This document shows, piece after piece, positions 12,347-50,418 of a DNA stretch of 64,000 nt. Positions within the stretch are counted from its first letter, which is position 1, and every line of letters begins with the position of its first letter. The notes beneath the pieces are model-generated. The model searched no databases. It had not been told where the DNA came from and saw nothing but the letters and a program-made list of their open reading frames with translations. A program made the translations under genes and the position numbers. Origin of the DNA: Isoetes taiwanensis (lineage: Eukaryota; Streptophyta; Lycopodiopsida; Isoetales; Isoetaceae); NCBI GenBank assembly GCA_021234155.1, contig JAJEKV010000226.1, positions 310,001 through 374,000 on the forward strand, in the 5' to 3' direction.

Positions 12347-12373
12347 GGGTAGTTCGCATGTGTGCGGCTACCC
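12347..12373. repeat. Palindromic GGGTAG...CTACCC tip, candidate left end of element B
   Basis: A 27-bp imperfect palindrome opens GGGTAGTTCGCATG and closes TGCGGCTACCC. Its first eight bases equal the terminal inverted repeat of element A. It lies about 115 bp before the coding exon of the element B transposase-like gene, close to the distance seen in element A (about 145 bp). I could not find a matching right end after 24.6 kb, so B may be truncated. Confidence 0.5.
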
Positions 12374-12462
12374 ACTATCCACCATTGTAGAAAATCTGCT
12401 GAGATGAATGAGAAGCATCTAGAATCTTGAATTACTGATCAATTGCTTGCAAATTATGATAG

Positions 12463-12909
12463 CTAACTAGTAAGCCTAATTTTTCAAATGAAGATGAGGC
12501 CAATAGTCAATTCGGACTAACAGATAATTGGAATCTTGTTGTTGGTGAAAGAACTGGAAATTGTGAAGAGGAATTTCGATTGAACACTCGGTTTGATGTT
12601 TGTGATGCTACCATTAAATCAGAGCCACCAAAGGCATCCAATCTTGAACTAAAATGTGATGGTTTTCAGGCAGTTTGTGATCTACCTACAAATTTTGGTA
12701 AGTGCTTGAAAACTGCTTTTCCATGTTAAACAGTCTTGAAATACTAGTTTGCTAATTGTTTTAAAGGTGTTGTTGAGATCCAGCATGAACATGGGTTTGA
12801 AGATCAGGAATCACTCTATAGAAAATTGCATGCAATGAAAAGGAGAGAACAAAGAGCAAAGAAAAGAGCAAGAGAAGCAGACTTAAAGAAAGATGGCTCC
12901 AGCAATGGA
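12463..12909 (+). pseudogene. Element B transposase-like gene, 5' part (two exons)
   Basis: Exon one (open from 12463 to 12697) encodes an acidic stretch including SNEDEANSQFGLTDNWNLVV and ends in a GTAAGT donor. The intron (12698-12766, 69 bp, GT-AG) joins in frame to exon two, whose product runs from VVEIQHEHGFEDQESLYRKL into a basic helix, MKRREQRAKKRAREADLKK. The reading frame then hits the CTAA target duplication of element A and resumes at 21935 as SKRRKQQISKKN, so the two parts belong to one gene. No in-frame ATG remains upstream of exon one, so the true start may be lost or lie on an earlier exon. The basic region may bind DNA or target the nucleus (inference). Identity as the N-terminal part of the transposase-like protein rests on this continuity and on position next to a GGGTAG end. 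Confidence 0.65.
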
Positions 12910-12913
12910 CTAA
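12910..12913. repeat. Target site duplication of element A, left copy (CTAA)
   Basis: CTAA directly precedes the GGGTAG terminus and is repeated at 21931-21934 directly after the CTACCC terminus. Removing element A with one copy of CTAA restores a continuous reading frame across the junction. Confidence 0.85.
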
Positions 12914-12934
12914 GGGTAGTTGCACGAAAGGGTG
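12914..12934 (+). repeat. Left terminal inverted repeat of element A
   Basis: Twenty-one bases, GGGTAGTTGCACGAAA then GGGTG, identical to the reverse complement of 21910-21930. Confidence 0.85.
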
Positions 12935-13057
12935 TCTCATATTTCTTGTATAATGTAATAATAGGTTACACTAGGTTAGTGTAGTTAGGGGGAAAAAATT
13001 AGATTTTACATGACATTTAATGCTTAGCAACCAACGTGAAAGATTCCATATTTAATT

Positions 13058-16000
13058 ATGGTAACTAACAAAATTCGTGCAATGAATTTGAAATTGGAAT
13101 CACCTTCGATTTCGGACTCCCTCGAATTCTCCTCCCAACAGATTCAATCGTTTCCCGGATCAATCGAACCTAAAAAATCGAGAAAGCCCCATTTTGATCT
13201 TGTTTTCAAATGGCGAGAATTCATTGTTTTGGGTGACGAAGCTATGGAAGAAGGTAGGTTGGAAGCAAGAAGAGGAAGACTCTCTTGATGAATCGGATCG
13301 GGGCAAGAACCCAACAGGTTCCCAAAGGGAAGTCAAAACGAAAATCTTGTGATCTTTGGATATGTGACAAAAGGTGTAAGAAGAAAGGTGAATGAAGTTG
13401 TTGATCTTATTGTGCAACAAGTCTCTAATTTGGACCCAAAACACCAAATTACTTTTGCCAAAAGACTCTTGCAGGATAAAAGGTTATGTTTTTAAATTCG
13501 AACCCATCCTTGGGAAGCTTTGAAGAGGCTATTGTGAAGGAAAAATGGTAAAAATCTCGGGGATGGCCTTCAAGAGGTGAAAAGAGCAAATAGCAATGAT
13601 AAACTTGCCGCTAAACACTCTGTTCTTGCTATGGTAGTTGGAAAAGAGGAGAATCATTGAAGCGTACAAAGGCTGACCAAATTGTTGAAATTACATCCAC
13701 GGAATATGAGCCTTGCAAAGCAAAAAGAAGGAAGGAAATGTCATTAGGTGGAGCAAATCTATGGGCATTAGCGGTCGAAAACCGGAACAAATGTTGTAGA
13801 TCAGGCTATGAAGAATTTGATTGCCCAATTTTGGTTGGATAACACAAAAAAGTCTCACCAAAAGTTAGAGATGTGATGAAGAAAAGGACCACGAGGCAAT
13901 TCAATACATTGACATTACGGTACAAATTATACATTGCCTTGATTTGATTATACAAATATATGTACTTGGGTGTTATTCTTTACATTGAAACAATATTCAT
14001 AATTCTTTCTAATTTACCTTATGAGTGTAATAATAGGAAAATTTACTTTGCTTTATGGTTGTACAAGTTTGAAATTACATTTTACATTTCTTCCCAATTG
14101 TTCAAATTCATTCTTGAGGTAGACTCTTGAAAGTAAGGATGTGAAAGATGTAGGATGTGTAATAGATGTGAAAAGCTGTAATAAATGTAGGATGTGGACA
14201 AGATTGTAATTTGTATGTGAAGCTATAGTAGATGTATTTGAAATCTTGAAAATGTATTGATGTAAACTCTGTTTCTATGCATTTTCTGCTGAATTATATC
14301 GAACTTTGTGGATCAGCATCCAGATGTTGGAATTGGCATTAGGCAGTTTATATACTTAAACCAACATGCATCACGGAAGCTAAAAGAAAGAAACACTTCT
14401 TTGTTGTGTCAAACACGAGCAAAAGGCAGATTTGTTTAGGAAAGCATTTAATATGATGAGGTCAAAAGTCCATGAGAACTGCTCTTGCAAGCTGTAGAAT
14501 TTGCAACTTCGAGAAGACAATCTTTGGAATTTGTCGAGGCAAAGAAAAGGACATTTGAGAATGTCGGCATGCTTTGGAGAGCCATGGTATGTGATAGAAG
14601 CGAGAAGATGAGGAGTGGCACTATCTAAAATGTATAAGTTCAGCTTGTGGAAATTGTGGAAAAAAAAAGATTGAATTATGTCAAGGGAGAAGAGTGAAAG
14701 CATTGAAGAACACTGTTGCATGGCAAGCCTATAGCTATGTGAATGAACCTTGAAGAAAGGAAGTTCTCGAAGGCTGATTTATGATTGACAAGAACAGCGA
14801 TTACAAAATGCATGTTAGATAATATGTTTGATCATATGGCTAAATTTGTACATCATAACTTTGTGGCACATTGGCAAAGCAAGCAATTCAAGGAATCCAT
14901 TAGAACACCGGGATGATCTTTGTACTATCGGTTGTTGATTTCTCGAGAGAATTATACTCTGAAACCATTCAATGAGATCAAAGCGCAACATTGGTACAAC
15001 GAAAGCGGATCAGCATTTTAGTTCATATCACAATGTTCAAGGTTAATAGAAAAATGAGGAAATGTGTGCACTTCTTCATTTCGGATGATAAGACACATGA
15101 TACTCACTTTGTGCGAGGGATGCATTCGGGTTGCATCTTAAGTGGTTTGCAAGAAAACGATGGCGGTGAGAAGAAGTTTCACTTAGTTTGGTGCGACGGG
15201 TGTGCAGCCCAATTCAAATCGAGACGAGCATTCTATCATGTAACCCAGGTATCATCATGAACATAAAATAAGAATGCAATGGAATTTTTTGGTTCGGGGA
15301 CATGGTAAAGGCACACATGATGGAGAAGGGGCTATTAGCGAAGCTATGGCTTGAGGCGAGAACAAAGAAAGAAGGAGGGCAAGGTGGTCATAAATGCTAA
15401 AAGCGCTTGTGATGTTTTGAGAGAAAAAAAAATCAGATGTGGAGCGGGTTTTTGGGAGGTTACTAACATTGAGAAGACAAAGACTTGGCGTGTTGCCAGT
15501 CAAAGGTGTGCAGACAATTCATTGCGTCTCATCGATAGACCCTAGTGATCCAACCAAGCTACTATGCAGGTCTCTTTCATGTTTTTGCAAGGCATGCATA
15601 AGTTTTGATTGGCCTGCTTGTGAGAATGTTGGCCATTGTGGTAAGTGGGATTTAAGAAAACTAGAGCCTACAAATCAGAACAGTCTAGGAGATGATGAGA
15701 ATGAGCTACAAGACTTGTGGGCAAATGACATAGACAATGTGGATGAGACAATCCAAGTTGGAGATTACTTAGGATCATTAGCGACTCAGGACAATTATGA
15801 AGGGGTGGCCTATTATATCATACAATGCGGAAGTGAAACATGCTCTTGAAGTAGGCGTCATGGATGACTATGGGAATCAATTTTACCGTGGTGATGAAGT
15901 TATATCAGGTGAATATTTTCAGCTAATACCTGGCTGCCATCAGAAGTATAAATTACTTAAAGGAAAGAAGGTCCTTGTCCATCCCGAGTCCGTGATAGGG

Positions 16001-16105
16001 GCGAGATTTCCATTGGAGCCAGTCCAGCATAAAATAAAAGGTGTTGCTTATGCATATGAATTATCCAATTCTTGGCACGAAATGCTTTTGGAAATGCGAG
16101 ATTGA
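13058..16105 (+). pseudogene. Element A DDE-like transposase candidate, broken
   Basis: Plus-strand blocks align in order with the genes in elements B and C. An N-terminal segment (13058-13290, LESPSISDSLEF...) leads to a helical block at 13375-13490 (VRRKVNEVVDLIVQQVSNLD) and a domain with a Q/I-A-Q-FW-x-DN core (about 13590-13880). Then come MLWRAMVC (about 14570), FVHHNFVAHWQSKQFKE (14843-14893), the VVDF-ENYT block (about 14925-14960), SDDKTHD (15081-15101), CDGCAAQFKSRRAF (15192-15233) and GHGKGTHDGEGA (15299-15335). A Cys-rich tail follows (IHCV...CFCKAC, 15515-15660), and the product ends near 16105. Aspartates in DFSENY and DGCAAQF are candidate catalytic residues (inference). At least five frameshifts or stops are visible. 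I recall similar ENY/DGC/HGKG proteins in animal genomes but cannot name a superfamily. Confidence 0.7.
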
Positions 16106-16912
16106 TTGTAGATCGTATGTAAACCGAAGACGAGTTTTTTATGCACGGTCCTAAGGCGAAAAAAATGACCGTCACATAAAATTGTTTACCATATTTCTTG
16201 TATTCATCATTTTCATGCCAAATCAATTGTATTGTGTGTGCTCTCTTTGTATGAGGAAGGTTGTGTGAAAAGTCCGGCCGAGATATCTCTAAGCGATTGG
16301 GAGTAATTGAATACATTGACTAGGTCAAAACTAGGTCAATGACCCGACGAATATAAAATACATCGATTTACATTCGGTGGACATCAAATCAAACTTTTAT
16401 GCATGATCTTTTTTTTATGCATGATTTTTTTGTGCCTTATCTTTGAACTGAAAATTGCGGACTTACATGCTACTATACAAGTCAAGAATGTGCAAATATT
16501 GTCATTTAAAAGTGGACAAAATTTTTGTATTTAAAGATGAAGATCGGTTACAATATGTTTTAAGTTTACAATATGAAGAAAAAGTTACAATATGTTTTTA
16601 CAAAATTTCACTTCATCTCATGTCAATATGTTACATGTCAACTCCTTTCACATATCTTCATTTAGTTCCACATGTATGAAGTTGGGGCCGCATCGATAAA
16701 CAACATGAGATGGTTAGTACACGTAATACTTTTACTTAATCTTTAGAAGACTATTAATTAATTACCTCTTAAAGTATGCAAGGCGGGAGCTCATGATGAT
16801 CCGGCGTGTCTAAATATGCCGCCATAGCGGCCGATCTCATCGTCATGGGGGTGGTGATATACGGGCGAGAGCCCGTGCTTTCGCCGAAGAACTTGTCTCC
16901 TCGTCATCGAGG
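16106..16912. other. Spacer between the convergent genes of element A
   Basis: AT-rich, with a short direct repeat ACTAGGTCAA at 16319-16340 and repeated TTACAATATG words near 16550-16600. It presumably holds the 3' ends of both genes. No separate gene is evident. Confidence 0.4.
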
Positions 16913-19900
16913 TCATCGACCATACATGTGTGAGTGCATGCAGCCCGCAATTGCATCCGGGGAACCGCCATACTCATATGTGATCCGCTCCATAACCAAC
17001 TTGTCAAATGCATCAATTGGTGAATGAAACGGGTGATCCCTCACGTATGTTGAAATCTCATCCGCATTGCGGAGCCCTTCAATCCAGAAGTAGAGTGCGG
17101 TCATAACGTTAGCATTTTGTTTGTTAAGTGTCCATGGTGGTATACAAATGTATGAGTATAGGGGATTTAATGAGCACTTGTATTGTGCATCATCAAACAG
17201 CAGAGCCCTCCTATGATACTTGGGAAATTCAGTTGAAATAACTTCCAAGTTCTTCACATAAAGATTTTTTGACGGGTTTATTCTAAATGGAAGCACCCAA
17301 TATGAATTTCAGATCCGGAAAGCCCTCTACTTTTAGCTGCTCAATTATGCTGCATACTAAACTAAGTGGCAGCTCGGACCATATCCCCAAATCAAAGTTA
17401 ATGGCATGTGCATAATAGAGGAAGACCCTCATGCCAGGCCCGCATATATACACTCTATCCCCTATCTCTATCGGCCTAGCATCTTTGGTTTTTGCAGGTG
17501 AGAACTCATCCTTGGATGTCGACAACCCAATCCTCCATCAATATCAAATACTAAGACCTTTCTTTTTCCCTAAACCTGCCAACAATAAAACATGATAAAT
17601 TTGAATAAAAGAAATGTTTAAATTGAATCGGTTTACATTCCATCTGCTCATGAGAATCGGGTTGACATGCACAATATACCAAATTTATTTAGACCAGAAA
17701 AATATAATTTAAACATTCAAGACTGCAAGTTCAAGGACATGTCGGAGGCCGAAGTGGCATCCAAGGAAGATTTAACTACCAAATGACTCTTCGGTGCATA
17801 CGCCGTGCTTGTTCTATAGAAGCTATCGTTGAGCAGCCACCACTCTCACTAATGAGAGGCGTCTATCAAGACTGCCGTCCGTGAAAGGGCATACTCATAC
17901 ATAAACCAGTCTTGTGTAATCTGCAAGATATAATAATGTGCCAATGTTAGAATTGATCATTAAAAAGGAAATAATGTGCCAATTTCAAATTGATCATTAA
18001 TAATGTACCTTTGAGTCTTTTCCAGAAATAAGTAGGTCAACAAACTTGTGCATAAATGCCATCACAAACAGCCATCAAGATGTCAAGTCAGGTTGTTGTG
18101 GTACTTCAACGTAATTTATACCTTTGATGTTATTTTTCCTCAAGTAATCCATTCCTTTGGATGTCTGACTCATCAAAATCTGCGTGTGTAGTCTGCGCAT
18201 ATAAAATAGTCATGTAAGATTTAGCAAAACATTGAGATTAATTGAAATAAAAAACATATCAAAGGGATGTCATACCCTCTAATTGCCTTTTCATTTGTGG
18301 CAAAGCCATTTAAAGGGTTCGGGATATGCATATTTGGTGCATCGAGAACTTTAGATTTGCTCGGCAAGAAGAGCAAATATGGCCCGAAGTGTTCGTTCTC
18401 AGAAATGCAGTGCGAGGATGTATTGGCATTTAGCCATGACTAGCCCAAAGAAGTCCTTGCTTTCAAGGTCTCTGGCGGCAGACTTGATGCATCATTTCTT
18501 TTCTTGTTGCTTGAAGCCTCCTTGAATAAAAGTAATTGTAGCGGAGAAGATATGGATTCTGCTTTTCCACTCTGCAGCGACTTATCATGAAAATACCTAA
18601 TTGAGCACAAGGTCACAAATAAGAGCATATTCGTAAAAAAGCTTTCCAAATCTTGATAAATGCTTCAAAACACGGAAAGAATGGAAAATCACCTGCCATA
18701 GAGTTCCACAAGGCGGTTTGTCATCCTCGAGTTGGTCATGCTAACAAAGCTTCAATGTCTATATCAACCACTTTCATTGGAGGTTTAGGCTGGCTATTCT
18801 TGAATGGGAAAAGTGGAGTGCGAGCCTTCAATGTCTTCATGTTCTCCACCATTCTACAAAGAATAATAGAATGTTAACTTGAAATGATTACAATTGTTTT
18901 AAAAAACATACACAAATACCTTGCAAGCAGATTCTCGATTGAGCGGTCTTATGCCTACAAAAATAAGTGTATGTAGTTGAGAGATGTATTCATATGCTTA
19001 ATATTAGAATTAGGCATTAGCATAGAAGAGTTAATGATGCCTATAATTACAATTCCAAGAAATTAAACCCTAAACTAAACACCCAAAACAGGCAAGTCTC
19101 ACCTTTTTACATTTGTTGCTTCCTTTCTTGAATCTACCTTTCTTTTTTAACTTTTTTGGCTCGTCCTCCTTTTTCCACGAACATCTCTACAGCCTTTGTT
19201 GCAACTTTGCATGCCCTTTCAAGATCTAGGCTCTCCAATTCAGCTACCCCTTTCACTTGTAGGCTCTCCTCTCCCGTGTCATCTACCACCAACAAATTAA
19301 AACCCCAATACAAATTTGGTATAGAGATAAAGAACATTAAAAAAATATGCACCCGATATTGAATTCTTTTGGTGGCGTTTTTAATGTCATCAGATTGCTC
19401 ACCATTTAAATCAGCCCGTTCACGGAAAATGGCAAGTTCGGGCTTTTGAGTTCAAAGACTAAATTAAAACAAAGAAGAATGTAGTTAGAGACACTTACTA
19501 TTGAATGGCTCGTGTTGCTGCTGCAACAAAGCCAACTCTCTGTTCCACATTTGGGATCTCACCTACAAGTGGGATCTCACCTTCCACATCTTCTATCAAG
19601 TTCTGCTCTGAATGTGCTTTGTCCTCCACATTGTCAAAGATTGTTTCTTTCACAGGCGACCTAGATGTGGATGGAGTTTCACTACCAAGGACATCATCCT
19701 TTCCTGATGTTTCAGCTCCAGAGGACTCCTCGTATGTCAATTTCAACCCTTTTCCATGAAATTTCTTCGTGCAACCTAAACCAAGTAACAATGAAGTCAC
19801 AAACATGCAATGCAAATATACATCAATACTACATACTACCTGTCAATGTGGCTGCTGGTTTCTTGATGCTATCCATATCTACATTGAAGAAATTTGTGAG

Positions 19901-21617
19901 TAAATTAATTGTATTATCTTGTTAACATGTACATCCCAACATGTCAAAAGGTAAATGTAAAGGAAAAATTCATGTCAATGAAAAAAAGCTAAAAAATTTG
20001 CAAACTAGATGTAAATCAGAAGTGGTAAAACAAATGTACACTTATAGTATAATAATATCTACCAACATGACTGCTGTAAATGTAATAGAAAACTAGAAAG
20101 ATAGATGTAATCATAATCTCATTTGCATTCTAGCATGTTATATGTACATATAAAGAGAAAATACATAAACCATTATGAAAATTACGGATGTGAAAAAGAA
20201 CTGCTCAAAACAAAGATCCAATTACAATTAAAATACATTCAAGTGCATTTATTCTAAGGCAAGAAAGATTCAAATCTATGTACAAATGAAACACTTAAGA
20301 CTGTATGTAAAAACTTCAACAGATCCATGCATTCAATAAACAAGGTCTTCTTCGACTGAACCACGGCATTCCAATGATTCGGCGTAACTCTTCCGGCAAA
20401 GAACATTCGTGGTAACGCAAGACCGGTTCGTTGTAGACACCCTAAAGGCTAGACATAATAGGCAGTGAGGGATGTCCACAACATACCATTATCACCATGG
20501 TAGACTCGAGGGGAGTCATTACTGGTTTGGTACATGTTGTAGTCACATGAGATGTGGATGCTATCAGATCTGGTCCATGAACAAAGCGAGGATGCAAATG
20601 ACATTACACCGATTTCTCCATTTGATCTATTATCTCATTGATCCTGCTCATACTACTGTTATTTGCCTCCAGATTTGTCGTTATGTCTTTGATAGAAGCA
20701 TCCAATTCAGCCAATTCATTGCAAAGGTTCTCAATTGGTTTCAGCAAGGCATCCATCTCCATAACCAAACTTTTCTTTTCTTCTTCAAAGTGGCTGCCAA
20801 GGCAAGTTGCAAATCAATTGGTTGCTTGCTTGCTCTTAAGGAGTCCAGCTTGTCCATTTGAACTTTCACTTGAGCATCCTTGCTTTGTATAACTTCGCTC
20901 AAAGTACTCCTTTCAGCCTCTAATTTACATACATCTGATTCTATTATCTTTCTTGTTTTTTAAAAGATTTCAATCGATTGTTCAAAGTTAAGGAGTCATG
21001 GGATCTCCTTTCTAGCAATTCGCCATCAATTTCATGTGTTGCCCTTCTTCTTTGCTGATTTACCATGCATGGCTTTCACATTGGAGGATTTCAAGGTAAT
21101 AACTTCAGTTAGGTCAGACTCCTTATATGAGCAGTTTTAGCAAATGCGCAGGCACTCTCTTTTAGCTCTTCCCAATCAACATTTACGCCCTTGGAATGAA
21201 GAGCATATGCTCGAAGCAAAGTACAGGGGTATATGATGGTTTGCTACCTCTGTCTCTATTAAAACAAACTCATACATTTTAAAGAAGTCTTGCATCCATC
21301 TTGGCTCGATCCTACTCTCCGATAACCCCTCACCGCTGGAGCTTCACTCCCCCAAACTCCTTGCACTATTTGTAAAAGCCCGGATAAAGAGTATCAAAAT
21401 GGTTGCTTCTAAGGTGTTTTCTTCATTTACCTTCTCAAACTCGGGCTGATGTACTTGTAGCTTTCTCTTTCTTTGATGGAGACGTCCCACCCTTCATTTT
21501 CTTTTGCCGCATGCTTTTGGAGACCTTTGCATTGGCTTCAAACGTGGTGATTTCTGGGGAAACACGAGATGGAGGCTTTGTCATGATCCCAAACCTAAGA
21601 ACTAAACCACGATACAA
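16913..21617 (-). pseudogene. Element A protein with coiled coil and C-terminal FCP1/NIF-type HAD phosphatase domain, broken
   Basis: A multi-exon minus-strand gene. Order from the N-terminus: a basic segment (21617-21435); a block with YPCTLLRAYALHSKGVNVDW (about 21240-21150); a coiled coil (20950-20600, ALLKPIENLCNELAELDASI); an acidic Ser/Thr-rich exon (19815-19498); KTLKARTPLFPFKNSQPKPP (18845-18780); and further exons to 17750, including one after a CTTGCAG acceptor near 17925. The last part is an FCP1 homology domain: HAD motif I as VLVFDIDGGL (17558-17529), then LGIWSELPLSLV (17392-17357), then RALLFDDAQYKCSLNPLYSY (17215-17155) with the motif IV aspartates, then EISTYVRDHPFHSP. This family removes phosphate from Ser/Thr in the RNA polymerase II tail or other nuclear targets. 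The usual Thr/Asn after the second motif I aspartate is Gly here. Frameshifts at 17530 and about 17290 and internal stops break it. Confidence 0.75.
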
Positions 21618-21909
21618 GGCTCGGCCTTGACCCTTCTAAGAAGACCAAGAAGCTTATGATGCAGAAGGGAACTAAGAATCGTCAAGTAAGGATTCTAATC
21701 GCCTTTGCTCCAAGACAGAGCTTTGCTAACAGAGAGAGAGTTCGGGAGTGGCTTGTTGAGCGGGACGGAGAAAACACACACGTTCAAAATCCTTCCAAAT
21801 GTGGTTCCCCCCAAACCTCCAACCATTAATTGTGGTATTAATGACCCCCCTCCAAAATATTGCCTACATTTTGCCTTTGTAAATGTAAAATTTGGGCCCT
21901 TTTTTTATC

Positions 21910-21930
21910 CACCCTTTCGTGCAACTACCC
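21910..21930 (-). repeat. Right terminal inverted repeat of element A
   Basis: Ends GTGCAACTACCC at 21930 and is the exact reverse complement of 12914-12934. Confidence 0.85.
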
Positions 21931-21934
21931 CTAA
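21931..21934. repeat. Target site duplication of element A, right copy (CTAA)
   Basis: Matches 12910-12913. The next bases continue the interrupted element B reading frame. Confidence 0.85.
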
Positions 21935-24585
21935 GCAAGAGAAGAAAACAACAAATTTCAAAAAAAAATTGCATTATATAATAATAAGGTATGTGCAAAT
22001 GCATCATAGCAAGACAGGGAAGACATTCTTGAAGGTGCTGCTAAACGACTGCCAGAATACCAGGTATTGAAATTGAAAGAAGTGAATACTTGAGGAAATC
22101 TTTAGCTCAACATAAATATGACAAGAAAACTGATGTGGTCAGAGCTCGAACCTCAGCAATGGTTTATGCTGTTGCCTCAGAAAAAACTAACTGTAGAAGG
22201 CTATCTGAATGTTTGAATTTGAGCAGAAAATATGTAACAACAGCAATACATAGAAGAGCAACAGCAGAAATTGGTGAAGGTCCCTGGTCAATGTTTAAGA
22301 GACAAACCAGATCTGACAAACAACAAAAGCTTGTGGTTGAGTTCTGGACCAATAATTCAAGAGTGTCTCCATGCAAGAAGCATGTGATTAAAATTAGGAT
22401 TGCCAAAGGCAATAAAATATTGCATCCTCTACATTTTTTGGAAGAGACTGAGGTTGGTTTATCTAATTTCCCTTTCTTATTTTTTTAAGTTACCATGCCT
22501 ACAATGCTTACGGTTTTAATGCAGGTTTCATTTTATGAAAGATTTCGAAGAGAGTTTCCAAAATTCGAAGTCTCTTTCTCAGCTTTTCATGCACTAAACC
22601 CAGCTTTATAAGGAAAGTGAAGGACAGGGAGACATGCTGTTGTGTATATCACATGAGGTTAGATTATGTTAGACAAGCAATTAACAAGATGAGGTTGGAC
22701 ACGAAGATTCATGGAACAAAATGTAATTGTACATGTGCTGTATGTGGTCCTGGCCTTAAATGTGAAGCCAACTTGAAGGCATATAAGTCATCAAGTGATA
22801 TGTGGAGGTCATTGGTTTGTGTAAAAGATATAGCAGATGAGTGGTATCAACATAATTGCATGCTATTGAAGTACAATTCTTGTGGTCCTTCCAAATTGCC
22901 CATGTGTCCAAAAGAGTTGAATAGAGGTGCTGCTCACATAGTTGACTGGAAGACATTTGATAGAGCAAACCCTTGCTGTATTATCTACTTTAGTTTGCTG
23001 TTGTATTTCAGAATCTTTCATACTCATTATTAAATGAGTTTTATGTAAAATTACAGGTTTTTGAACCATCTACTGAACCTGATTGAACTGGAGCTTTGAA
23101 AAAGGTAACAAAACCAATAGTTAAGCTCGTGTACAAGACAAGTACTACTGCTGATATTTTGGAGTATGCAAAGAATGTATTGACAGATTTTATTCCTCAC
23201 AACTATGAAGTCAGATGGCAGGCTAAACAGTTCAAGGACTGCTTAGCCACTTTTCCAAAAGACACAGTTGTATCAGTAATAGACTTTGCTGAGAATTACA
23301 CATTCAAAATACAGCAAGAGATCCAAAGTTTGCATTGGAGGAATGATCAATGCACAGCACATCACATACAGACATGCAACTGTTGCAGAGGTTCAAGAGA
23401 ACTGTCTAAGTAAGTGTGAGAGGAACATAATCAAAGAGACTCACTTTTATGTTTCAGATGACAGAGAACATGATTTGTTCAACATTGCCTTAATAAGCAT
23501 GCTCAGTTTCTATACATGAAAGGTGTGGAGTACACCAATCATGTGATGTGATCTGATCGTTGCTCACATCAATTCAAGGGTGCAAGAACATTTCTCTTCA
23601 TTGGTAGATTTTTTAAGACCTCTGGTATTCCATTTAACTGGAATTACTTTGCCTCTTACCATGGAAAAGGTATGCCAGCACTGCAGATTTACTTCAATTG
23701 TATGTCTCCAAAGTAAGCTTCTCTTTTTTGTTTGTAAGTGAACATGATGGGGCAGGGACAGTGATTAAAAGAGCACTTACACATGAAATGTTGAAGAGGA
23801 ATTCTAGACCTTTAAGAAATGCTCATGATGTTGTAATATTCTATCAAGAACACTTCAGTAATTCTGACAAGCACAGGTAAATATTGTGTTCATAGTTGTA
23901 TTTGTAAACAACATTTATGAACTCATTTGTTTGGCTGCAGATTCTTTTGGGAAATAGGCAATGTGCAGGGATGAATTGTTTGAGTGTGCTACTTTGGTAG
24001 GATCTAGCAAGATCCATAGCATTAGACCAGTCAACAACAAGGACCCTACTATGGTTGCACACATGAATTATTTCTGCTTTTGCCACCACTCTTGGTCTGC
24101 TAAGTACAGCAAGTGTGTTAACAAAGAAAGAATAGGGTCATGGGTTTTTTCAGAATTAAGGCCAGGAATTGAGGAAGAAATAGAAGCTTGTGATGGGCCA
24201 GTGTATGAAGGTGATGCTGAGTGGAAGTCTGATATCATAGACATTGGAGAAAATTTTGTTGTTGTTGCTCCAACAGACAATAAGAAGAAAGTTGATTTTT
24301 ACATTCTCAAATGTACTCAGACAAAGCATGTTGTTGAGAAGGCTTTCAAGGACCCCTTGGGGACAGAAGTTTGGAAGGAGAGAAGTTGTAGTAACAGGTA
24401 AGTTCTATAAGTTTGTAGGTGATAATAAGTATGAACTTCTAAGACATGAACCAGACTGCAATGTGTACAGTCATTTGGTTGTATCATGCAACTTCTTGAT
24501 GGAAGACATGGGAGGTAACTGCAATGTGTACAGTCATTTGGTTGTATCATGCAACTTCTTGATGGAAGACATGGGAGGTAACTAG
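21935..24585 (+). pseudogene. Element B DDE-like transposase candidate, 3' part
   Basis: Resumes the frame cut at 12909 with SKRRKQQISKKN. The best preserved exon (22090-22453) encodes KYDKKTDVVRARTSAM and a helical block ending VVEFWTNNSRVSP. An intron at 22454-22524 (GT-AG) leads to SFYERFRREFPKFEVSFSAF. A Cys-rich segment follows (CCCVYHMRLDYV, CNCTCAVCGPGLKC, DMWRSLVC, PMCPKEL; 22620-22930), then FIPHNYEVRWQAKQFKD (23190-23240), VIDFAENYTF (23278-23307), SDDREHD (23455-23475), SDRCSHQFKGARTF (23552-23594, Gly to Arg) and FASYHGK (about 23650-23671). An intron of about 70 bp separates that from EHDGAGTVIKRAL. Another GT-AG intron is at 23876-23940. The tail has CFCHHSW and KKVDFYILKCTQTK, matching element A. 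It is damaged by several frameshifts. Confidence 0.75.
24455..24580 (+). repeat. Perfect 63-bp tandem duplication in the element B gene
   Basis: The 63 bases from 24455 are repeated exactly at 24518-24580. Sixty-three is 21 codons, so the frame is kept and the product repeats NCNVYSHLVVSCNFLMEDMG. Perfect identity in an otherwise decayed gene means a very recent event or an assembly artefact. Confidence 0.9.
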
Positions 24586-27182: not shown

Positions 27183-28060
27183 TCAGTCAGACATTAATAA
27201 AACAAATGCATGATGTAGTGTAAACGTGGGCACTATGACATCATTGAGCCCGACGTCTGCTATGACGAAGACACAATGCATACAGCAAAGCAATAGCACA
27301 AGAAAGAACTTGTCGCTCCTTAGGAACCACAAAGTCAGCCTGGAACCAATCTTCTCCAACCTAGCAAGAAAAAACATATGACAAAGTTAAATAGCGAATT
27401 CTTAAACCTAATCAGATGCTTATTCGTTCTACCTGAAGTGCTCTACCACCCATATCTCGACGGGGACCCGAACAGAAGAGAGTATCTGCCAACATGCGCA
27501 TCAATAAAGCCACGTGCACACCACAACTATCTGAATCCCTCTGACGTGGCGTATCCATATCACGAATGAAGAGGGGGGCGCAACCCCCTCTCACATCCCC
27601 AGGTGCTCCTCTAATCTGTATATAAAGCCTATACATCCTGCATGTTGTGCAAGTACTAAGAACGGGCCATCCTCGCTATTTAAGTGCATGCGAATAGTGA
27701 TGATGGTCAACTTACCTATTCAACTCTACCACGCTAGGGCGCTCGCCACGGGACCCCTCGACCATGGAATCAAAATATAACCATGACGCGCTCACGTCCT
27801 CCTCAATCCCGAGGTGCTCAACAATATCCATGTCTGACAAAAGGAGGTACAACCACCAATGTCCACTGTAACATTTCAGATGGTCAAAATATATAGCAAT
27901 AAAAGTAGATGGTACATATGAACTAATAACATCACCCACTTGTGCACAGGCCAGAACACTGCACGTACGTCGCTCCACTTCACTCTGGGTCCGTAGTCGT
28001 CCCGAAATACGGGAGTCAACTGTGATGCGGCATCATTCCCTGTCCCGCGTATAAAAATAC
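27183..28060 (-). pseudogene. Ulp1-like cysteine protease (peptidase C48) fragment
   Basis: Minus-strand exons show the C48 layout. VKWSDVRAVFWPVH (about 28000-27960) resembles the strand before the catalytic His. YSGHWWLYLLLSDMD (about 27870-27825) has the His. SWLYFDSM (about 27780) supplies the Asp. DTPRQRDSDSCGVHVALLMR (about 27555-27500) supplies the Gln and the catalytic Cys in an S-C-G context. The family cleaves SUMO-like tags. In plants such domains are common in Mutator- and CACTA-type transposons as well as host genes. The exons are in different frames with intron-like gaps, and the N-terminal part is absent. It could be transposon cargo or a host-gene fragment. Confidence 0.7.
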
Positions 28061-28336
28061 GCGTCCGTTTTAAAAAAAAAAAAAAATAGAAACTTTTCAA
28101 AAAAAAAAAGTTAAAAAGTAGATTCAAATCTTGTACTTTTTCTGAAAAGTGTGTTAGTTGGGACGCCTTCTTGCCGCCATAGCCGCCGGAGTTGAGCATT
28201 CTTGTCGCTGTAGCCGACCTCCATTGTCACCCTGCAACTACCCTAACCATCTAGCGCCCTCGCCTAGCCTCTAGCGCCATCTACCTTAGCTTAAGCGCCT
28301 CACTTCTTCTCCTGCCATCCATTGCTGGTAGTCACC
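28061..28336 (+). promoter_or_regulatory. Upstream region of the H3-fusion ORF
   Basis: Two poly(A) runs (28071-28086 and 28100-28110) are followed by a CT/GCC-rich leader with repeated CTAGCGCC(C/A) words (28251-28280) just before the ATG at 28337. I see no convincing TATA box or LTR border. Confidence 0.3.
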
Positions 28337-33463: not shown

Positions 33464-35120
33464 ACCTTTCATAATTCTTATGGATACGGAAGTACACATA
33501 ATTTTGCTTCTCCTAGAATGGCCCGGGCGTTGCAACTTGAGACTTTGAGATCTGGTGAAACCACGTGACTTTAGCGGTGGTAAGATCGGACATACTAATG
33601 GCGTCGCATTAACCTCAAATGCATCCGCGCGCACCGGTGGCATTGGTTGCCGAAGTTAATGGATATTGGCAAATATGATCGATTGTTGGCATGGAATTCT
33701 TGGCATCTGCAAAGGCCAATATAGACTGCGAAAAACGGGAGGTTACCTTCAATGCAACTAATGGAGCCCGCGTAACTATAAAAGGTGATCCATTAAACCC
33801 CATTATGCAGTCTATGTCCATCAGGCAGTTAAATAAGGCTATGCGCAAGGATAAGCTACTTTGCGTCATCAGACTTGCATCCATTGAGTCAGATGCTAAG
33901 CAGAAGCAAATAGTTGATGCATTGCCAGAGAGCATTGCTAATCTTCTCAGGGAATTTAGCGATCTCTTCCCAGACGAGATCCAGAAACTTCCTCCATTTA
34001 GAGGTGTAGAATGTGAAATAGCTTTGGAACCAGGTACTAAGCCTACCAGTAAGGCCCCGTACCGTATGAGTCCCCCTGAGTTGGCAGAGCTTAAGAAGCA
34101 ACTTCAGGAGTTACTAAACCTAGGCTTCATTCGGCGTAGCATTTCGCCTTTTGGCGCTCCTATCCTTTTTGTTAAGAAGAAGGATGGCTCCCTGAGGATG
34201 TGTATTGATTATCGGCAGTTCAACAAGCATACGATCAAGAATCGTTATGCTTTGCCAGAGCGAGCGATCTTATGGACCCGATTGCAAGGGGCCAAGTACT
34301 TCTCAAAGATTGACTTACGCTCCGGATATCACCAAATAAGAATTAAAGAGGAGGACATCCATAAGTCTGCTTTTCGCACTAGATATGGGCATTATGAGTT
34401 TACCGTTATGCCTTTTGGATTAACTAATGCCCCCGCAACTTTTATGCGGTTAATGAATGATGTCTTCTGACAATACTTGGATGATTTTGTTGTTATTTTC
34501 TTTGACGACATCCTCATCTATAGTAAGACCTTGGAGGAGCATGGCAAACATCTTCGGTTGGCCCTACAAAAGCTAAGACGTCACCAGCTCTTTGCCAAGT
34601 TCTCTAAGTGCAAGTTTGCCACTTCCAAGGTGGATTATTTAGGCCATATCATTTCGGCTGAGGGAATTGCTACAGACCCGGCAAAAATAGAAGTAGTCAA
34701 GGATTGGCCCATTCCAGGTAATGTTTCGAAAGTCCGAAGTTTTTTGGGATTAGCAGGATATTACCGTAAGTTTGTTAAGGATTTTGCCAAGATTGCAGGG
34801 CCTCTCACCGATCTTACAAAGCATGAAAAAGTGAAGGATTGGATTGAGCATTGGAAAGCAAAGGTCCAGGGAAGTTTCCAGAAGCTTAAGGATGCTTTGA
34901 CCTCTGCACCAGTCCTCACATTGCCGGACCCGGACAAGGATAAACTAGTAGCAACGGATGCCAGTAAGATTGCTACCGGTGGAGTCCTAATGCAGGAGGG
35001 GAGGGTTATTGCCTATGATTCAAAGAAAATGAATAAGACTGAACAACGATACCCTACCCATGATCAGGAGTTGTTGGCCGTTGTCCGCGCTCTGCGTATA
35101 TGGAGACACTACCTTCTTGG
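33464..35120 (+). pseudogene. pol: Ty3/gypsy Pol, first part: protease, reverse transcriptase, start of RNase H
   Basis: Protease: LMDT then, after a one-base shift, GSTHNFASPRMAR (about 33478-33525), the aspartic DTG-STHNF motif. RT spans about 34020-34700: [46 protein letters not shown] and the catalytic [21 protein letters not shown] at 34468-34470, probably from a CGA codon, lies just before YLDD. The thumb has [11 protein letters not shown], and RNase H begins with [14 protein letters not shown] and [19 protein letters not shown]. The frame stops where element C is inserted and resumes at 50423. The order PR-RT-RH-IN and the sequence place it in Ty3/gypsy. Confidence 0.9.
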
Positions 35121-35124
35121 TAGA
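35121..35124. repeat. Target site duplication of element C, left copy (TAGA)
   Basis: TAGA here and TAAA at 50419-50422 flank element C. With the right copy taken as the original, the gypsy frame reads HYLLGKRFQLDTDH across the junction, as expected for RNase H, so the left copy has one substitution. Confidence 0.7.
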
Positions 35125-35146
35125 GGGTAAAAGCATGCTGTGGTGT
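35125..35146 (+). repeat. Left terminal inverted repeat of element C
   Basis: Begins GGGTAAAAGCATGCTG and aligns imperfectly, with a two-base gap, to the reverse complement of 50395-50418. The first five bases GGGTA are shared with element A. Confidence 0.65.
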
Positions 35147-36712: not shown

Positions 36713-38255
36713 TTTCCATCAAGACGCGGGCTTACTATGTTAGGAGGCTGACATATACGTAGTGTTTTGTTTTCTGAGACTATGGCGGCGGACTTGTGAA
36801 GGAATGGTTGGCTGCAACATCAAGCTAGGTTTGATAGATGCAAGCAATGATTGCAAGCAAGCGAGGATAGGAAAAATGATATCAAAAGAAAGATTGAGTT
36901 GATGGAGCATAAAGCATCAGAAATTAGAGCTGATTTGGATGGCAATCAATCATGACACAAACCGAAGCGGCGAGAGGGTGTTCGGGTTGTGTTTAACCAA
37001 AGGATGAAGAGCTAAATGGTACAACGGTGTTGCCCGGGCTGAAACAATTAAATAAAGGAATTAACAAACTGAAATTGAGCTAAAGGCATGTGAAGACTTC
37101 TTCTTGAGCTGCTACCTCGAATGCAAAGATTTGAGATTTTTTTTACGGCGTAGTGGTCATGACACTCCTTTAGATCCCGTGACTTCCAATGCTTCCCGAG
37201 GCAGAAGAAGAGGGTGATGAAGGTTGTCCATTTTGTGGGCGTTATGCGAAATGGGAGGGTAAAATGTTGCGGTTGTGATAGCGAATCGTCCATCAAGATA
37301 TCACATTCCATGTCTATCACACCATTTGAGGTAAATATTATCATCTCTAACCGTCGTCTAAAGACTCTATTGATTTTGAATTTGTTTTGCGGACACTCTA
37401 GAACCTGCTGCAGCCCGGTTTGTGGCCACATTATGAGTGAGACATGGCTTTTGGCTTTTTTGGTGTTCGAGTGGTACCACAAGAACCAATAGACACAAGT
37501 AAATCAAAAAGAGGGGTGAAAGCAAGGTTTGGGAAGTCTCGATGCTTGTACTCGGGTCTCTTTCATCCTGGCTTAGTCTCTTCCATCTCGTTTGGCTTAG
37601 TCTCTTTTGCTTGTCTCATTTATTGTATCTAAAAGTGCCCCCGGTATGAGATCGCTTAAATCATTTTAGGGGCACTTTAGATATATATAAACGAGGAACA
37701 TCAAAAAAAGAGTAAAAAGCCCTGATCGCGTGACTCTCTTGAATGGTTGTCAACTCACGGGCTTGATATTGTTCCTTTGCAAACAATATAGATTATTTTG
37801 CAAACAAGTGCCTTAACTAATGTTTCTTGATGTTGTCACGGGTCTATTGACTTAGTGTTTTGCGAGTGCAGAAATTTGAGACCCACAATTTGCATGTTGT
37901 CACGAGGTCCATGAGTTATCCACGCCTCGATGGGTTATGAGGCGCAAGATACCTCGGTTGTACCTAGAATTCACCCCATTTGATATTCCTAAGTCAATCC
38001 TTACCGGCCGACGGCGTGGAGACTCCAAAACGAAATTTGGATAGTCAATCGAATTGGTCGTATCAAGTAAGTACCGATGCCACATACATGATTTATTTTT
38101 TTGTATTTTTCTGTGGTCTTCCTCATTTCAATTATGTTGCAGAGATAAATGCTACTGCAACTGGAAGCCATCACGAAGAGATTCCTAGTGCATCTGATTT
38201 AGGGGGGAAAATTAATTCCCTTGAGATTCATTCTGTACGGGGTCCTTCACCAGAA

Positions 38256-38752
38256 TGTTGGAATCAAAGACTTTTGAGTCCGGGAATTGAACCCAGAGGA
38301 AAAACCAGACACAATCTTCTCCCTTAATCTTCCTTTAAATCCACAAAGGATTTACCTGTTCAAACCGAATTAAGACCCACAAAGGATTCCACACAGGACT
38401 AAACTATAATATCACAAAGAACTGAAATATTATCACACAGAATCGGACTCTGCCTTTTACTACAGAAACCATTAAATAGCAAAAGATCAGCTTATCAACC
38501 TGCTCCAGCACCAAATCCGGCAGCATATAGGAGCTCCAAGATCGGATTCCAAGAACAGAACCTTCACCGAGATCCGGCCCAAAATCTCCGCGTCGTAAGG
38601 CGTTCTGTTTTCAAAAACCCTTGAACTGTTCACCTGTACATTTTCGTCTACCTTTTTCCCTTTTTTATATTTTTCTTCCATGCAAAATCCATGTCTAAAT
38701 GCTAACCAGGTGTATTGATCAAATGCCACCACTTAGGCATGTAATTCCAACA
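38256..38752 (-). repeat. 3' LTR of the copia element
   Basis: 497 bp, closely similar to 43147-43645. Confidence 0.9.
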
Positions 38753-38767
38753 ATCTCCCCCTCATGC

Positions 38768-40520: not shown

Positions 40521-40526
40521 ACCTGT

Positions 40527-43032: not shown

Positions 43033-43146
43033 CTTCCATGCTTGAAAACCGAGCCTCCTTTATACACCTTAGCGTCGACTAGAATAGAAGCGACAATCTT
43101 ATTAGATGCCATCTCCCTTTTAGACTCAACTTGCTCACGATGCGGA

Positions 43147-43645
43147 TGTTGGAATCAAAGACTTTTTGAGTCAGGAATTGAACCCGGAGGAAAAACCAGA
43201 CACAATCTTCTCCCTTAATCTTCCTTTAAATCCACAAAGGATTTACTGTTTTCAAAGCAATTAAGACCCACAAAGGATTCCACGAGGATTCGAACTATAA
43301 TATCACAAAGAACTGAAATATTATCACACAGAATCGGACTCTGCCTTTTACTACAGAAACCATTAAATAGCAAAAGATCAGCTTATCAACCTGCTCCAAA
43401 GACCAAATCCGGTGACATATAGGGCTCAAGATGGGATTGAAATGAATGGACAGGCTTCACTAGATCCGGCCCAAAAATCTCACGTCGGCCGCGTTCCTGT
43501 TTTTCAAAAACCCTTGAACTGTTCACCTGTACATTTTCTTCTACCTTTTCCCTTTTTTTATATTTTTCTTCCATGCAAAATCCATGTCTAAATGCTAACC
43601 AGGTGTATTGATCAAATGCCACCACTTAGGCATGTAATTCCAACA
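43147..43645 (-). repeat. 5' LTR of the copia element
   Basis: 499 bp, closely similar to 38256-38752, with small indels between the two. Confidence 0.9.
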
Positions 43646-44402
43646 CAGAAAAAAGTTTTGGTGCTGAATATGAGCCAAATGCGGATGCAGGTAATGAAGT
43701 TGACAAAAAACCCGGATCTGGACAAGATGCGGGTGCGCTCAACGAGTCCAATACAACCTCAACCAACAAAAACCAAGAGGTTAAGCGAAATTCTCCTTGT
43801 TTACGGATTTTAATGGGGTTTTAGGCAAGTTTTATGACTTGAAAAGAGGATCCTGCATCGGTAGGAGCAGTGACCATCCGTAAATTGAACCATCAAAGTT
43901 CGAGTTTCGTGCCTGGATTTCAGGAGTTCTTAGAATGGTGTTTTTCAAAATTTGAGATTGCATTGTGGTCCAGCATGGCTAAGAGTAATGTTGACTTGTT
44001 GTGAGAAAGTTGATAGGAATATAAGGGCGATTTCTTTTTATTTGGAATGGGATGATCGCACCAACACAAAAATAAAAAAGTGGTTAATAAGCCAATTTTC
44101 CTTAAGGATCATCCAAAGTGTACGTGAAATTTTGGAGATACGGGTGACAAACACATTGTTGATAGATGACGAGATATAAGGGTTCGCCAACCACCGAACA
44201 CAATGATATGTCCAAATAGTTTTGCTCCCGACGGGTTGGATTCCAATTTCTTTTTGAGCAACTCAAACCATGGTGGAGGGACTTAATTAAGGTTTGAGAA
44301 AGTGTGTCGAACTATGTGAAGGAACATCAAATGTGGAACATGTGGGATTCAAGAGTCGGCGCAACTTGCATGAAAATGCTCGACAAGTATTTTCATAAAT
44401 GA

Positions 44403-46030: not shown

Positions 46031-47529
46031 CTAACATCGTGGGATTGGAGGAGAACAAGGACCGCTGGATTTTACTTGGTCCTCAATGTTAGCATGCACA
46101 TTGAAGGATGGTACAATAACTTGAAGTTTCCAATCATCAACGTAGTGCTTGTTCACTAACCGTCCCCATGCCATCCAAGCGTAGCTGCGGGAAGCATGAA
46201 AGTTCCCTCGTGTGCAAGCTGCCACGGAGATTGAGGATTGAATGCATGTACACAATGGATGCGCCTAGTGTCCAAAATCCTTTCTGCACCCCATGCTTTC
46301 TTTCTATCTATATCCTCCACCTTGACTTCCCAAAAGAACCTTTTTATATTCTTCCTCTTTATTGGTTTCAGATGTGTTCATCCACTCCCGGATGTTCCAC
46401 AAGTAAACATCTCTTCGGGAACTTCTACCACTTCATGAGCATTACCCAATTTTATGTTCTTTCGTATTTTTAATTGCGGTTGTCTTAACCATCTCTTCAA
46501 CTCGGCAGACTTTGCCATCGTGTTCACCTTTCCGTGGTTAGAACCAAAAAAATTCCACATCATATAGACATCCGATTGTCGTTTGTGTACCTAGCCACAA
46601 AGTAAAATGGTCTAGAAGCCTTGAATTGAGATCTTTGCGCACCATCGAAAACACATAATGTCTTTTGGAACCCTTCCTTTCTGCTCCGGATATTTGTGGT
46701 GCTTCATGAAGCGGTGTCGCCGAACAAAGTATCGTGTTCCCTATCATCGATACATAGTAATGTGTTTCCTTGATAATCTCATCGCCCGAGTCATACTGAT
46801 ATGTTATTTGAACCAAATGGTAATCGGGTTATTGACCCGGTATCGATGTGCACCTCCTCTTGTTCCTTGAATGTATAGTTCTCGCAAAATCCACTACCGA
46901 GAGACATGCATCTGGCGGGAGATTCTCCGAAGCTCCTTAAAGGCATTTTACCGCCATTGGTTTTTGAAATTATCGTTGGAAAGATTTTTAGACGCGCTCT
47001 TTCGGTTTATCCGAAGCTCCTTGGGTTGTCTCATTATCTTGATGAGTCAGGTCTCCTACCGAACTTCGAGGCGTTGTCTTTTTCATAGTCAATGTACTCC
47101 CATTTCCTTTCCCTACCGCCACTTCCTTCCATGGACAGTCTGAAACTTCTTGCTCCCCACGACTCACAATTTCCAGGGATGCACCTTCTTGTGAAACTCA
47201 TCTAATTCACTCTTTGGACACAATATAGATCTCCACAAGCTTCCGTACTTGCAATTTTATCTTTGGTGCCCCTGCATTGACCAAGTTCATGTGATCTACA
47301 AACATGGCGGTTGAAGTGCAATTCTTGGGATGTTTGGTTCTCATCCCATTGAGTCCATCCACTAGCATTTGCATCCTCACGTGTTGAATCACACGGCAAC
47401 TATTGAAGTCCAATTTCACCACAATTCGGGTTTTAGCTTCTCAAAAGCTCGAAGTTGAATCTTAATTTCGGATGTTGGTCGAAACCTCTTGAACAATAGC
47501 ATCTGCATGAAATGAACACTAAGCTGTTA

Positions 47530-48330: not shown

Positions 48331-48431
48331 CTTTTATCCTATTTAGGTATGACATAAAAAAATCTGCCTAGCCTGCTCTCATAAACACTTCTGAAATTGT
48401 ACACCACGATAATAATTACATTCCTCTTCTA

Positions 48432-48905
48432 ATGGTTAGAAAGGAACTGGGTCCTAAATCTGTTCCTTTCGATTCGATTTTGGCGTTTCATTTCCCAATT
48501 AGGCCAAATCGAAGAAGTTCATTCGGCAACATGGTAGGATCCATGTTGAGGAGATCCTCTGACTATTGTAGGGTGGCGAGGAGGGCATTGGCACATGTTA
48601 AAGCGGGGCTCGTGATCAATCTCACGAAGGTGGATATGCCTAAATCCACCTTCTTCTTTGATTTCGAATCAACCTAAAGGCATACAACAGACTGGATCTT
48701 TGGGCCTTCAATGGCTATGCTTGGAGTCAGTTGATGAGGAAGAGCTCTTAGACAAGGTCCATCGGCTTATGTTACATCTTTCTTTGCAAGGTAGCTGGTA
48801 TATTTGTTCTCTGTCACTTGTCGCTCGACTCTGCTTGGCGGGTTTTTGGCGAAGTGCGTACTTACCACCGGGGGATCGCGAGGAAGCACTAGCAAACCTC
48901 ATCTG
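48432..48905 (+). pseudogene. Possible LINE reverse transcriptase fragment
   Basis: A plus-strand stretch reads like a non-LTR RT between motifs: ALAHVKAGLVINL, a FFFDFE-type string at about 48650-48667 and, after a shift, KAYNRLDLWAFNGYAW and EELLDKVHRLM. This recalls the LDFEKAYDR..W.F block of L1-like RTs. It is short and broken, and no YADD motif or poly(A) tail is visible. Confidence 0.35.
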
Positions 48906-50336
48906 TTAAATTAGGATACTACGGAAAGCTTAGATGCTTTAGTGCAAAAACAATAATTTTGGATGCACCGGTTCTCGAGCCAGTCCATACCCGGCATTTC
49001 ACATTTTAGGATCATGCATGTAAATTTAGTTCGAAAGTCTGAGAGCTTTCAATGGAAAGCCAAATTTTGTAAAGCCAAATTTTGTAAGATCCTTTTTAAT
49101 ATATCATACTTTCCATGGTAGCTTGCTTGAATCGACAAAAATTGTCTTTATTCAACAAAATTTGTATCTCGGGATGGAGTTAGTTATAGCTCAAATATTT
49201 TTAGGGGTACACACACCCGGTAAAAGGAGTACTCAATTACGTCATGTTCTAATAATATTCCAAACATTAAATATTGCATTTAGGACTAGAGTCAACTACA
49301 CACAATTCACATCATCAATTACACCACAATCAACGTACAACACAATAACCACCACATGCACCAACACACTAAGCACCATAACTAAGAAACATGAATAGCG
49401 AAATAAACTAACACGTGATTCCTCGGATAGTGGTGGCATGTTCTTCTCTTACATTTCTCTCCAATCTTCTAGTTCTAACATCCTTTTGTGTTGGGAGACA
49501 CTCACAGTGTTCTCAATCCAAAATTTTTGAATCTTTTCTATATGTTCATCTGAAAATTGCATCGAATCTTTTAGCCCTCTTGTAAGAAAACCCATTTCCC
49601 ACCATTGTGTCGATCTCTTCCCTCTTTTTCTTTGCCTTTTGCGGGTTTCTTGGGTGAACACCTAATACCTTTCAAGATCTACATTTGGCTGATTTTGTCA
49701 CTTGTTTGAGAATGCGCACGGCGCGTGCATTTATATTACAAAGGCGACTATTCTTGGCTGCTAAGCTGATCATTGCTGGTAGAGAGTTTGATGATGCATG
49801 GAGTCAGGCTCCTTATAACGATGCTCTTGGCTTCCAAATCCTTTAATTCTTCACCTATGAATTTTTTCCAATGTTTTATCCCTCAAAAATCAAGTAAAAT
49901 TTCTTTCGCCGTGCTATCCTCCATTCTTTTTGGTGCGTTTATGGAAAGAGCGTTAGCAAATTAAGGACAATCTGGCGTTTCACTTGCACTTCTTGATGAA
50001 CGGATCCTTACGCTTGGTCGCAAGCTCAATTTTTCTTCTCTTCTTCTTTTCCTCTGGCTTTTCTTCAACATTTCTTGTTCCTTGGTTCTTCTTCATTTTC
50101 TCTGTGCCTAAAATACCGGTTTGTATCTGAGATTACCTCATTGACATCCATATCCACAATGGATTGGGCTTTCCTGTGAGGAGGGGAGCCAAAGAACGGG
50201 GCGTAGGCAAAAAGCGGGAAGGGGCCAAAGAATAGGAATTTGAATTTGAATTTTAGTTTTGAAATTAAATTTCCCCCTGGCCGGCGGGACTCTATTCTTA
50301 AATCGGCCGTTGGCGGTGCCATAATTACACTTTCAT

Positions 50337-50350
50337 ACCACAAAAGTGGT
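50337..50350. repeat. Right subterminal hairpin of element C
   Basis: ACCAC and GTGGT arms with an AAAA loop, the counterpart of 35181-35194. Confidence 0.6.
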
Positions 50351-50394
50351 GGATGCAGCGCCACATTTTGGGGGGGCGGGGGACGGCCGGTGGA

Positions 50395-50418
50395 ACACCA
50401 CGCAGTGCTCTCTTACCC
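50395..50418 (-). repeat. Right terminal inverted repeat of element C
   Basis: Reverse complement begins GGGTAAGAGAGCACTGCGTG. It ends TTACCC directly before TAAA. Confidence 0.65.

Follow-up and report, generated by a model that had tools for sequence, protein, structure and literature searches.

Elements in the window

The window analysed here is a 64,000-bp stretch of the Isoetes taiwanensis assembly (contig JAJEKV010000226.1, positions 310001-374000), and it contains three DNA transposons or their remnants, called A, B and C below. They belong to a family in which a transposase gene faces a convergent accessory gene, and in several subfamilies the accessory gene ends in an FCP1/NIF-type phosphatase domain. 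A transposon carrying this pair of genes is real, and the family has hundreds of matches across the genome (1,658,258,908 bases in 1,110 contigs). Copies or loci retrieved from the same genome for comparison with the window bear L-numbers. The parts of the three elements are as follows.

11225-12913, forward strand: left part of B; left terminus GGGTAAGTTTTGTTTAATGGTATAC at 11225, transposase frame from 12748 (blastn to the paralogue L054)
12910-12913, no strand: target-site duplication CTAA of A, left copy
12914-21930, no strand: element A, 9,017 bp, inserted in B (termini and duplication, empty site in L054)
12914-12943, forward strand: left terminal inverted repeat of A; 24 of 30 positions match, the first 21 identical
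14922-15438, forward strand: remnants of the A transposase core (WCDGCAAQFK, HGKGTHDG) in two frames; profile matches, related rows in the genome
15421-16102, forward strand: Cys-rich C-terminal part of the A transposase gene; open frames, similar by eye in L002, L048 and L064
16916-17566, reverse strand: FCP1/NIF-like domain of A, broken; motif I DIDGGL at 17528-17545, motif IV LLFDDAQYK at 17189-17203
20607-20959, reverse strand: coiled-coil-like part of the A accessory gene; open frames, by-eye match to an open frame in the A-family copy L064
21901-21930, reverse strand: right terminal inverted repeat of A
21931-21934, no strand: target-site duplication CTAA of A, right copy
21935-24582, forward strand: right part of B; the transposase gene continues, homology to L054 stops at 24582
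23222-23874, forward strand: transposase-like block of B
43806-44235, forward strand: NIF-like remnant of C (DFNGVL to LLIDDE); lies near the right end of a long terminal repeat (LTR) element, decayed relatives genome-wide
46462-46751, reverse strand: remnants of the C transposase core, convergent with the C NIF remnant

A is inserted into B, an older relative, and the insertion interrupts the transposase gene of B. L054 provides a natural empty site: when the two flanks of A are joined with a single CTAA they align to it over 809 columns at 92%, and A is absent. The termini of A open with GGGTAGTTGCACGAAAGGGTG. An earlier note on this DNA, made from the sequence alone, had given A GGGTA termini and a 4-bp duplication, and both are retained, while its outer coordinates are replaced by those listed above. 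The region was then taken to start at 12347, which is not an element boundary; this position falls inside a 670-bp stretch of B (11754-12423) that stands where L054 has 97 bp, and B itself starts at 11225, where the terminus resembles that of L054.

Profile searches recovered the transposase-like blocks in all three elements at the coordinates given, as well as NIF-like pieces in A (17093-17281, reverse strand, E 8e-8; motif I at 17528-17545) and C (43906-44235, forward strand, E 1e-10; DFNGVL at 43806). A profile search of B found no NIF domain. The genes of A and C are broken, with pieces in different frames and stops. Relatives of the A NIF domain elsewhere in the genome are about 90% identical to it.

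Termini, target-site duplications and copies

Both ends could be placed in nine elements, which are listed with their duplication and length.

Element A (window): CTAA, 9,017 bp
L005: AGCA, 7,898 bp
L002: ACCT, 7,703 bp
L048: CAAA, 7,357 bp
L047: CACG, 4,264 bp, transposase gene mostly missing
L054: GCTT, 6,866 bp
L001: AGGT, 8,341 bp
L049: TATT, 6,976 bp
A-family copy on C1025: flanks TTGC versus TTAC, 9,019 bp

The 4-bp duplication is identical in eight of the nine, and in the ninth it agrees at three of four positions. Lengths range from 4,264 to 9,019 bp, the termini match at 18-30 of their first 30 bases, and every end starts with GGGT except the left end of L001, which has GGGC. The clearest element is L048, with a terminal match of 30/30, transposase frames at 2040-5360 on the forward strand and accessory-gene frames at 5585-9104 on the reverse strand. 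Past mobility of the family is shown.

The eight identical duplications all differ, and a TA-containing duplication, which the earlier note gave for A and C, is not a general feature; most of them are of another kind (AGCA, ACCT, CAAA, CACG, GCTT, AGGT). The target of piggyBac and Kolobok is TTAA, which is not found among the eight, and Mutator duplications are 8-11 bp long, while those of this family have 4 bp. The earlier note had also considered that copies with the same termini might always lack the phosphatase domain. This is not the case: outside the window L001, L002, L005, L048 and L049 are complete elements in which the NIF frame is open, the ends are of the GGGT type and the duplication is 4 bp long. 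It is fairly probable that these are cut-and-paste DNA transposons forming a large group, with GGGT termini, 4-bp target duplications, a length of about 7-9 kb and two convergent genes.

The transposase

The transposase contains the conserved and acidic blocks DFAENY, WSDG and HGKGxHDG. The aspartates in VSVIDFAENY and in WSDG are invariant across 11 aligned rows, and a further one was seen by eye in HGKG(E)HDG. The protein is probably a DDD-type cut-and-paste enzyme, as judged from its motifs. Comparison with Pfam and PDB gave no meaningful match, and no relatives were found in viral contigs (transposase and NIF queries) or in contigs of prokaryote genomes (transposase query). In the transposase tree L054-L060 are grouped (98/98) and L062 and L063 join L002 (80/90), the deep branches being weak.

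Pairing of transposase and NIF genes

Pairing was assessed from the best 150 rows per query (NIF and transposase, clades I and II); the counts are minimum values, and in some cases several rows stem from one copy. Of the 150 clade I NIF rows listed, at least 68 lie within 10 kb of a listed transposase (66 convergent, two divergent), and so do at least 63 of the 150 listed for clade II, all convergent. Uniform placement would give 0.27 pairs per list, and the repeated pairing with a convergent FCP1/NIF-type gene, already suspected from the window, is thus far above chance. Among the matches listed for both clades 129 of 131 pairs are convergent, with a gap below 3 kb in 122. The A family, which was typed by eye (38 of the 150 NIF rows and 24 of the 150 transposase rows listed), has 20 pairs including that of the window, and all 20 are convergent. 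As a control, the 38 top-scoring host-type NIF rows were used, host-type being judged by score and, in rows actually read, by the canonical motif as well; none of them had a listed transposase within 10 kb.

The NIF domain

The domain was tested with the Pfam profile PF03031 (curated cut-off 21.8 bits). Intact copies score well above the cut-off (L002 69.1, L006 75.6 and L061 60.8 bits), and three window pieces searched alone (A 16916-17308, A 17286-17537 and C 43934-44176) gave no NIF match in Pfam. The domain does not reach the NCBIfam cut-offs of the SCP, FCP1 and UBLCP1 subfamilies, and by profile the solved structures closest to it are UBLCP1 (3shq, E 8e-13) and CTDNEP1 (8ujl, E 7e-6).

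The motif DXDX(T/V) is described as the signature of C-terminal domain (CTD) phosphatases (PMC7281111; PMC8346121). In SCP1 the nucleophile is described as the first Asp, with the second in an assisting role (PMC7281111), while fungal Tim50, which has no perfect motif, is described as a receptor without phosphatase activity (PMC8346121). Motif I was sampled in 42 domain rows (two host and 40 others), which after subtraction of seven re-fetches left 33 distinct copies outside the A family; 12 of these belong to groups III and IV, which have a different gene context. The second Asp is replaced by Asn (DxN) in all 33 copies, and the first is kept in 32. In the A family motif I is DIDGG in eight of ten retrieved copies, the other two having no motif match. 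No sampled copy of either kind has the canonical signature. A general loss of the second aspartate was considered and is ruled out by the A family, which keeps both.

The active site bears on the idea put forward in the earlier note, namely that the NIF domain works as a protein phosphatase on the tail of RNA polymerase II, or on another nuclear protein, and raises transcription of the element. The first Asp, the DD of motif IV and two Lys residues are invariant in ten aligned copies, the A family keeps both aspartates of motif I, and the closest solved relatives, UBLCP1 and CTDNEP1, are both phosphatases. Against these points, Asn replaces the second Asp in every one of the 33 distinct copies that are not of the A family, and A-family copies have a Gly at the T/V position. 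UBLCP1 is mainly a proteasome phosphatase, which counts against RNA polymerase II as the substrate. An active phosphatase of this kind is considered unlikely, and action on the polymerase tail is doubtful because motif I is DxN or DIDGG instead of the canonical signature.

In each of two trees the mobile NIF domains form one group, separate from the 11 host sequences of the first (100/100) and the 10 of the second (100/99); long branches were flagged. Ratios of nonsynonymous to synonymous substitution (dN/dS) were calculated by the Nei-Gojobori method, keeping pairs with dS between 0.03 and 1.5. The median is 0.156 in clade I (14 of 15 pairs), 0.272 in clade II (52 of 66 pairs) and 0.175 in group III (16 of 45 pairs). 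The domain is under purifying selection in clades I and II, and the deep values imply that it has been kept functional through the history of the elements. Host gene fragments are reported to be picked up by Mutator-like elements (PMC6446971), and the NIF copies could in the same manner be fragments caught by chance. This is very improbable, and given the present trees it appears close to refuted: several subfamilies have the NIF domain in the same position and orientation, the mobile domains are separate from the sampled host genes, and purifying selection extends over deep divergence.

Other NIF genes were also met with in the genome. A second repeated gene type carries at its end, after stretches that on frame reading are ParB-like and methyltransferase-like, a NIF domain of the DxN kind, belonging to groups III and IV (L006:4488-9629, reverse; L050:5482-9528, reverse; L051:254-4918, forward; L052; L053). 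Against Pfam these stretches gave nothing above cut-off except NIF, and a profile search of the retrieved loci found no family transposase beside them. Their ends were sought and not found; L052 and L053 have a 3' end in common, and it has no GGGT. A further NIF gene with the motif DVNRIF (L048:822-1505, reverse, 44.7 bits) lies just outside the L048 element and forms a long branch of its own. In L006 a partial NIF match (840-974, forward, E 3e-7) is found beside a DUF7869 frame (275-880, reverse). L003 and L004 are related cellular FCP1-like genes with the canonical motif DLDHT, and they score above the NCBIfam FCP1_euk cut-off.

Architecture of the accessory gene

The accessory protein consists of an N-terminal domain, a coiled coil (by reading), a RING-H2-like finger, a charged linker and, in several subfamilies only, the C-terminal FCP1/NIF HAD domain. 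The finger was sought with a loose pattern of our own with RING-H2 spacing (C-x2-C, C-x-H-x2-H-x2-C, C-x2-C), which matched six of 24 long sources (L047, L048, L059, L061, L062 and L063) and gave no match in L064. By eye the RING region of the clade I copies L002 and L005 seems to be frameshifted.

A clear NIF domain is present in L001, L002, L005, L047, L048, L049 and L061. Profile searches did not find it in the examined stretches of L054, L056, L058, L059, L060 and L062, and its status in L055, L057 and L063 is ambiguous. That NIF is a constant part was rejected on slices of 6.6-7.5 kb from eight more transposase loci (L056-L063), among which only L061 is clear (E 1.3e-45). Two weak matches were left uncounted, one in L057 upstream of the accessory gene (E 8e-4) and one in L062 that covers about 18 profile positions and overlaps the transposase frame (E 0.003). 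On the transposase tree, with its weak deep branches, the presence of NIF changed at least two times. The earlier statement that each element has the same two convergent genes is correct as to layout, the NIF piece facing the transposase in both A and C, but the NIF domain is not universal across the family.

The accessory protein could have a structural role beside the transposase, taking part in end binding, target choice or assembly, with NIF and RING as interaction modules that lack a target in the host. It would then be comparable to the second gene of MuDR-type elements, which is itself poorly understood. The convergent layout (129 of 131 listed pairs and 20 of 20 A-family pairs) would agree with such a role, and N-terminal or RING parts are present in L054, L058, L059 and L062, loci without NIF, so that the core accessory role does not need this domain. 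A structural partnership leaves the constraint on the phosphatase fold and its conserved active-site residues unexplained, and it is rather improbable.

Proposed function of the accessory protein

That the accessory protein serves the element, and is not passenger DNA, is highly probable. The chances are about even that the NIF domain of the DxN clades chiefly serves for docking on a phosphoprotein of the host, with no efficient turnover, and the RING finger would then modify or recruit partners, favouring expression or transposition. Docking that brings in the ubiquitin system is favoured because the NIF domain is constrained, yet without the canonical catalytic motif, and follows a RING-like finger. 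From the motifs, catalysis by the NIF domain seems doubtful and docking likelier. RNA polymerase II as the docking partner would be a guess only, and a questionable one. A still wider proposal is quite unlikely: the elements would be a plant lineage at superfamily level, defined by an accessory protein that combines a RING-type ubiquitin-ligase module with an FCP1-like phosphoprotein reader, which would dock on and mark phosphorylated transcription machinery or silencing factors and so give the element a transcription or anti-silencing device of its own, the NIF fold being shared with the ParB-like/methyltransferase-like/NIF gene type.

Several points weigh against docking by a NIF domain that the elements retain for their own use. 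The scope is a single genome. No listed transposase lies within 10 kb of 82 of the 150 clade I and 87 of the 150 clade II NIF rows listed, which is not the same as absence, and in the B family none of 33 transposase rows (among 150 listed) lies within 10 kb of a NIF row in the two lists (300 rows). The NIF domain appears to be dispensable for mobility in some lineages, since searches of L062 and of most members of the L054-L060 clade failed to find it. Close pairs show weaker constraint, with dN/dS up to 0.53 in clade I and up to 0.79 in clade II, as expected of decaying copies, and the six A-family pairs (0.36-0.90), at very low divergence, are too similar to judge. All Pfam matches to RING are below cut-off, the best having E 0.0044. 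The domain may be catalytically active after all, above all in A-family elements, where both aspartates are kept.

If an FCP1-like domain is indeed kept under selection, it would link mobile DNA to phosphoprotein control, possibly that of RNA polymerase II. The natural series of DxD, DxN and no NIF offers a means to test its role. Among genes annotated as NIF phosphatases in the genomes of seed-free plants, some may belong to transposons.

Element C and neighbouring features

Element C had been described with GGGTA inverted repeats, a 4-bp duplication and an end at 50418. No convincing ends were found: between 35 and 52 kb no terminal pair with equal 4-bp flanks was above threshold. The pair ending at 50418 has 15/24 matches and the flanks TAGA/TAAA, and is not better than three others among the five listed. 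Its left partner at 35125 lies in the final bases of a frame (34477-35130) that reads as reverse-transcriptase-like. The LTR element that ends near the C NIF remnant has repeat blocks at 38255-38752 and 43146-43645 and is copia-type by frame reading. Among the best 150 relatives listed for the C NIF fragment (window 43934-44176) many span only residues 1-61 and have similar stops, which suggests that a nonautonomous family spread with a dead NIF piece.

Elsewhere in the window, a fragment resembling Ulp1/C48 proteases (27186-28243, reverse strand; match at 27415-27675, Pfam E 0.036, below cut-off) lies beside a terminus-like GGGTAGTTGCAGGG at 28243, and possibly represents another element with protease cargo. 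Direct repeats 98-99% identical and about 9,786 bp apart (267-10282) are likely to belong to an LTR retrotransposon. From 57917 to 64000 the sequence is a tandem array of units of roughly 1.1 kb, with a G+C content of 0.56-0.57, compared with 0.41-0.44 in the preceding 6 kb.

Comparison with known systems

No report of FCP1/NIF cargo in DNA transposons was found in the open-licence literature, Repbase and most subscription papers being outside this scope. The roles of accessory genes in plant DNA transposons are often unknown; VANC of the VANDAL elements counters silencing. VANC is described as an anti-silencing protein, and the aphid element Ghost as having a separate open reading frame for a RING finger (PMC6446971). 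The RING part alone is thus not unprecedented, since in this Mutator-like element it also stands beside a transposase (PMC6446971). MuDR/VANDAL elements resemble the present family in combining a transposase with a second gene, but their duplications are given as 8-10 bp against 4 bp here, and no NIF domain is mentioned for them (PMC6446971).

Sola elements are described as having a DDD-type transposase, 4-bp duplications, terminal inverted repeats and mostly a length of 2-9 kb; they are recorded from a moss and are uncommon in flowering plants (PMC10741241). The present family has 4-bp duplications, terminal inverted repeats and a length of 4,264-9,019 bp, a comparison by anatomy only, whereas the features described for Sola include no RING-NIF gene (PMC10741241). 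The anatomy fits Sola, a likeness at the level of description, and the family is not filed there.

A second enzyme-like gene beside a DDD/E transposase is also found in the composite-like KolobokP transposons, as described in PMC9587614. In these elements, however, the second gene encodes a homing endonuclease, and they have long terminal direct repeats. With the CTD-type phosphatases FCP1, SCP and UBLCP1 the NIF domain of the elements shares the NIF/FCP1 HAD fold, but it differs from them in having DxN or DIDGG as motif I and in being joined to a RING-like finger.

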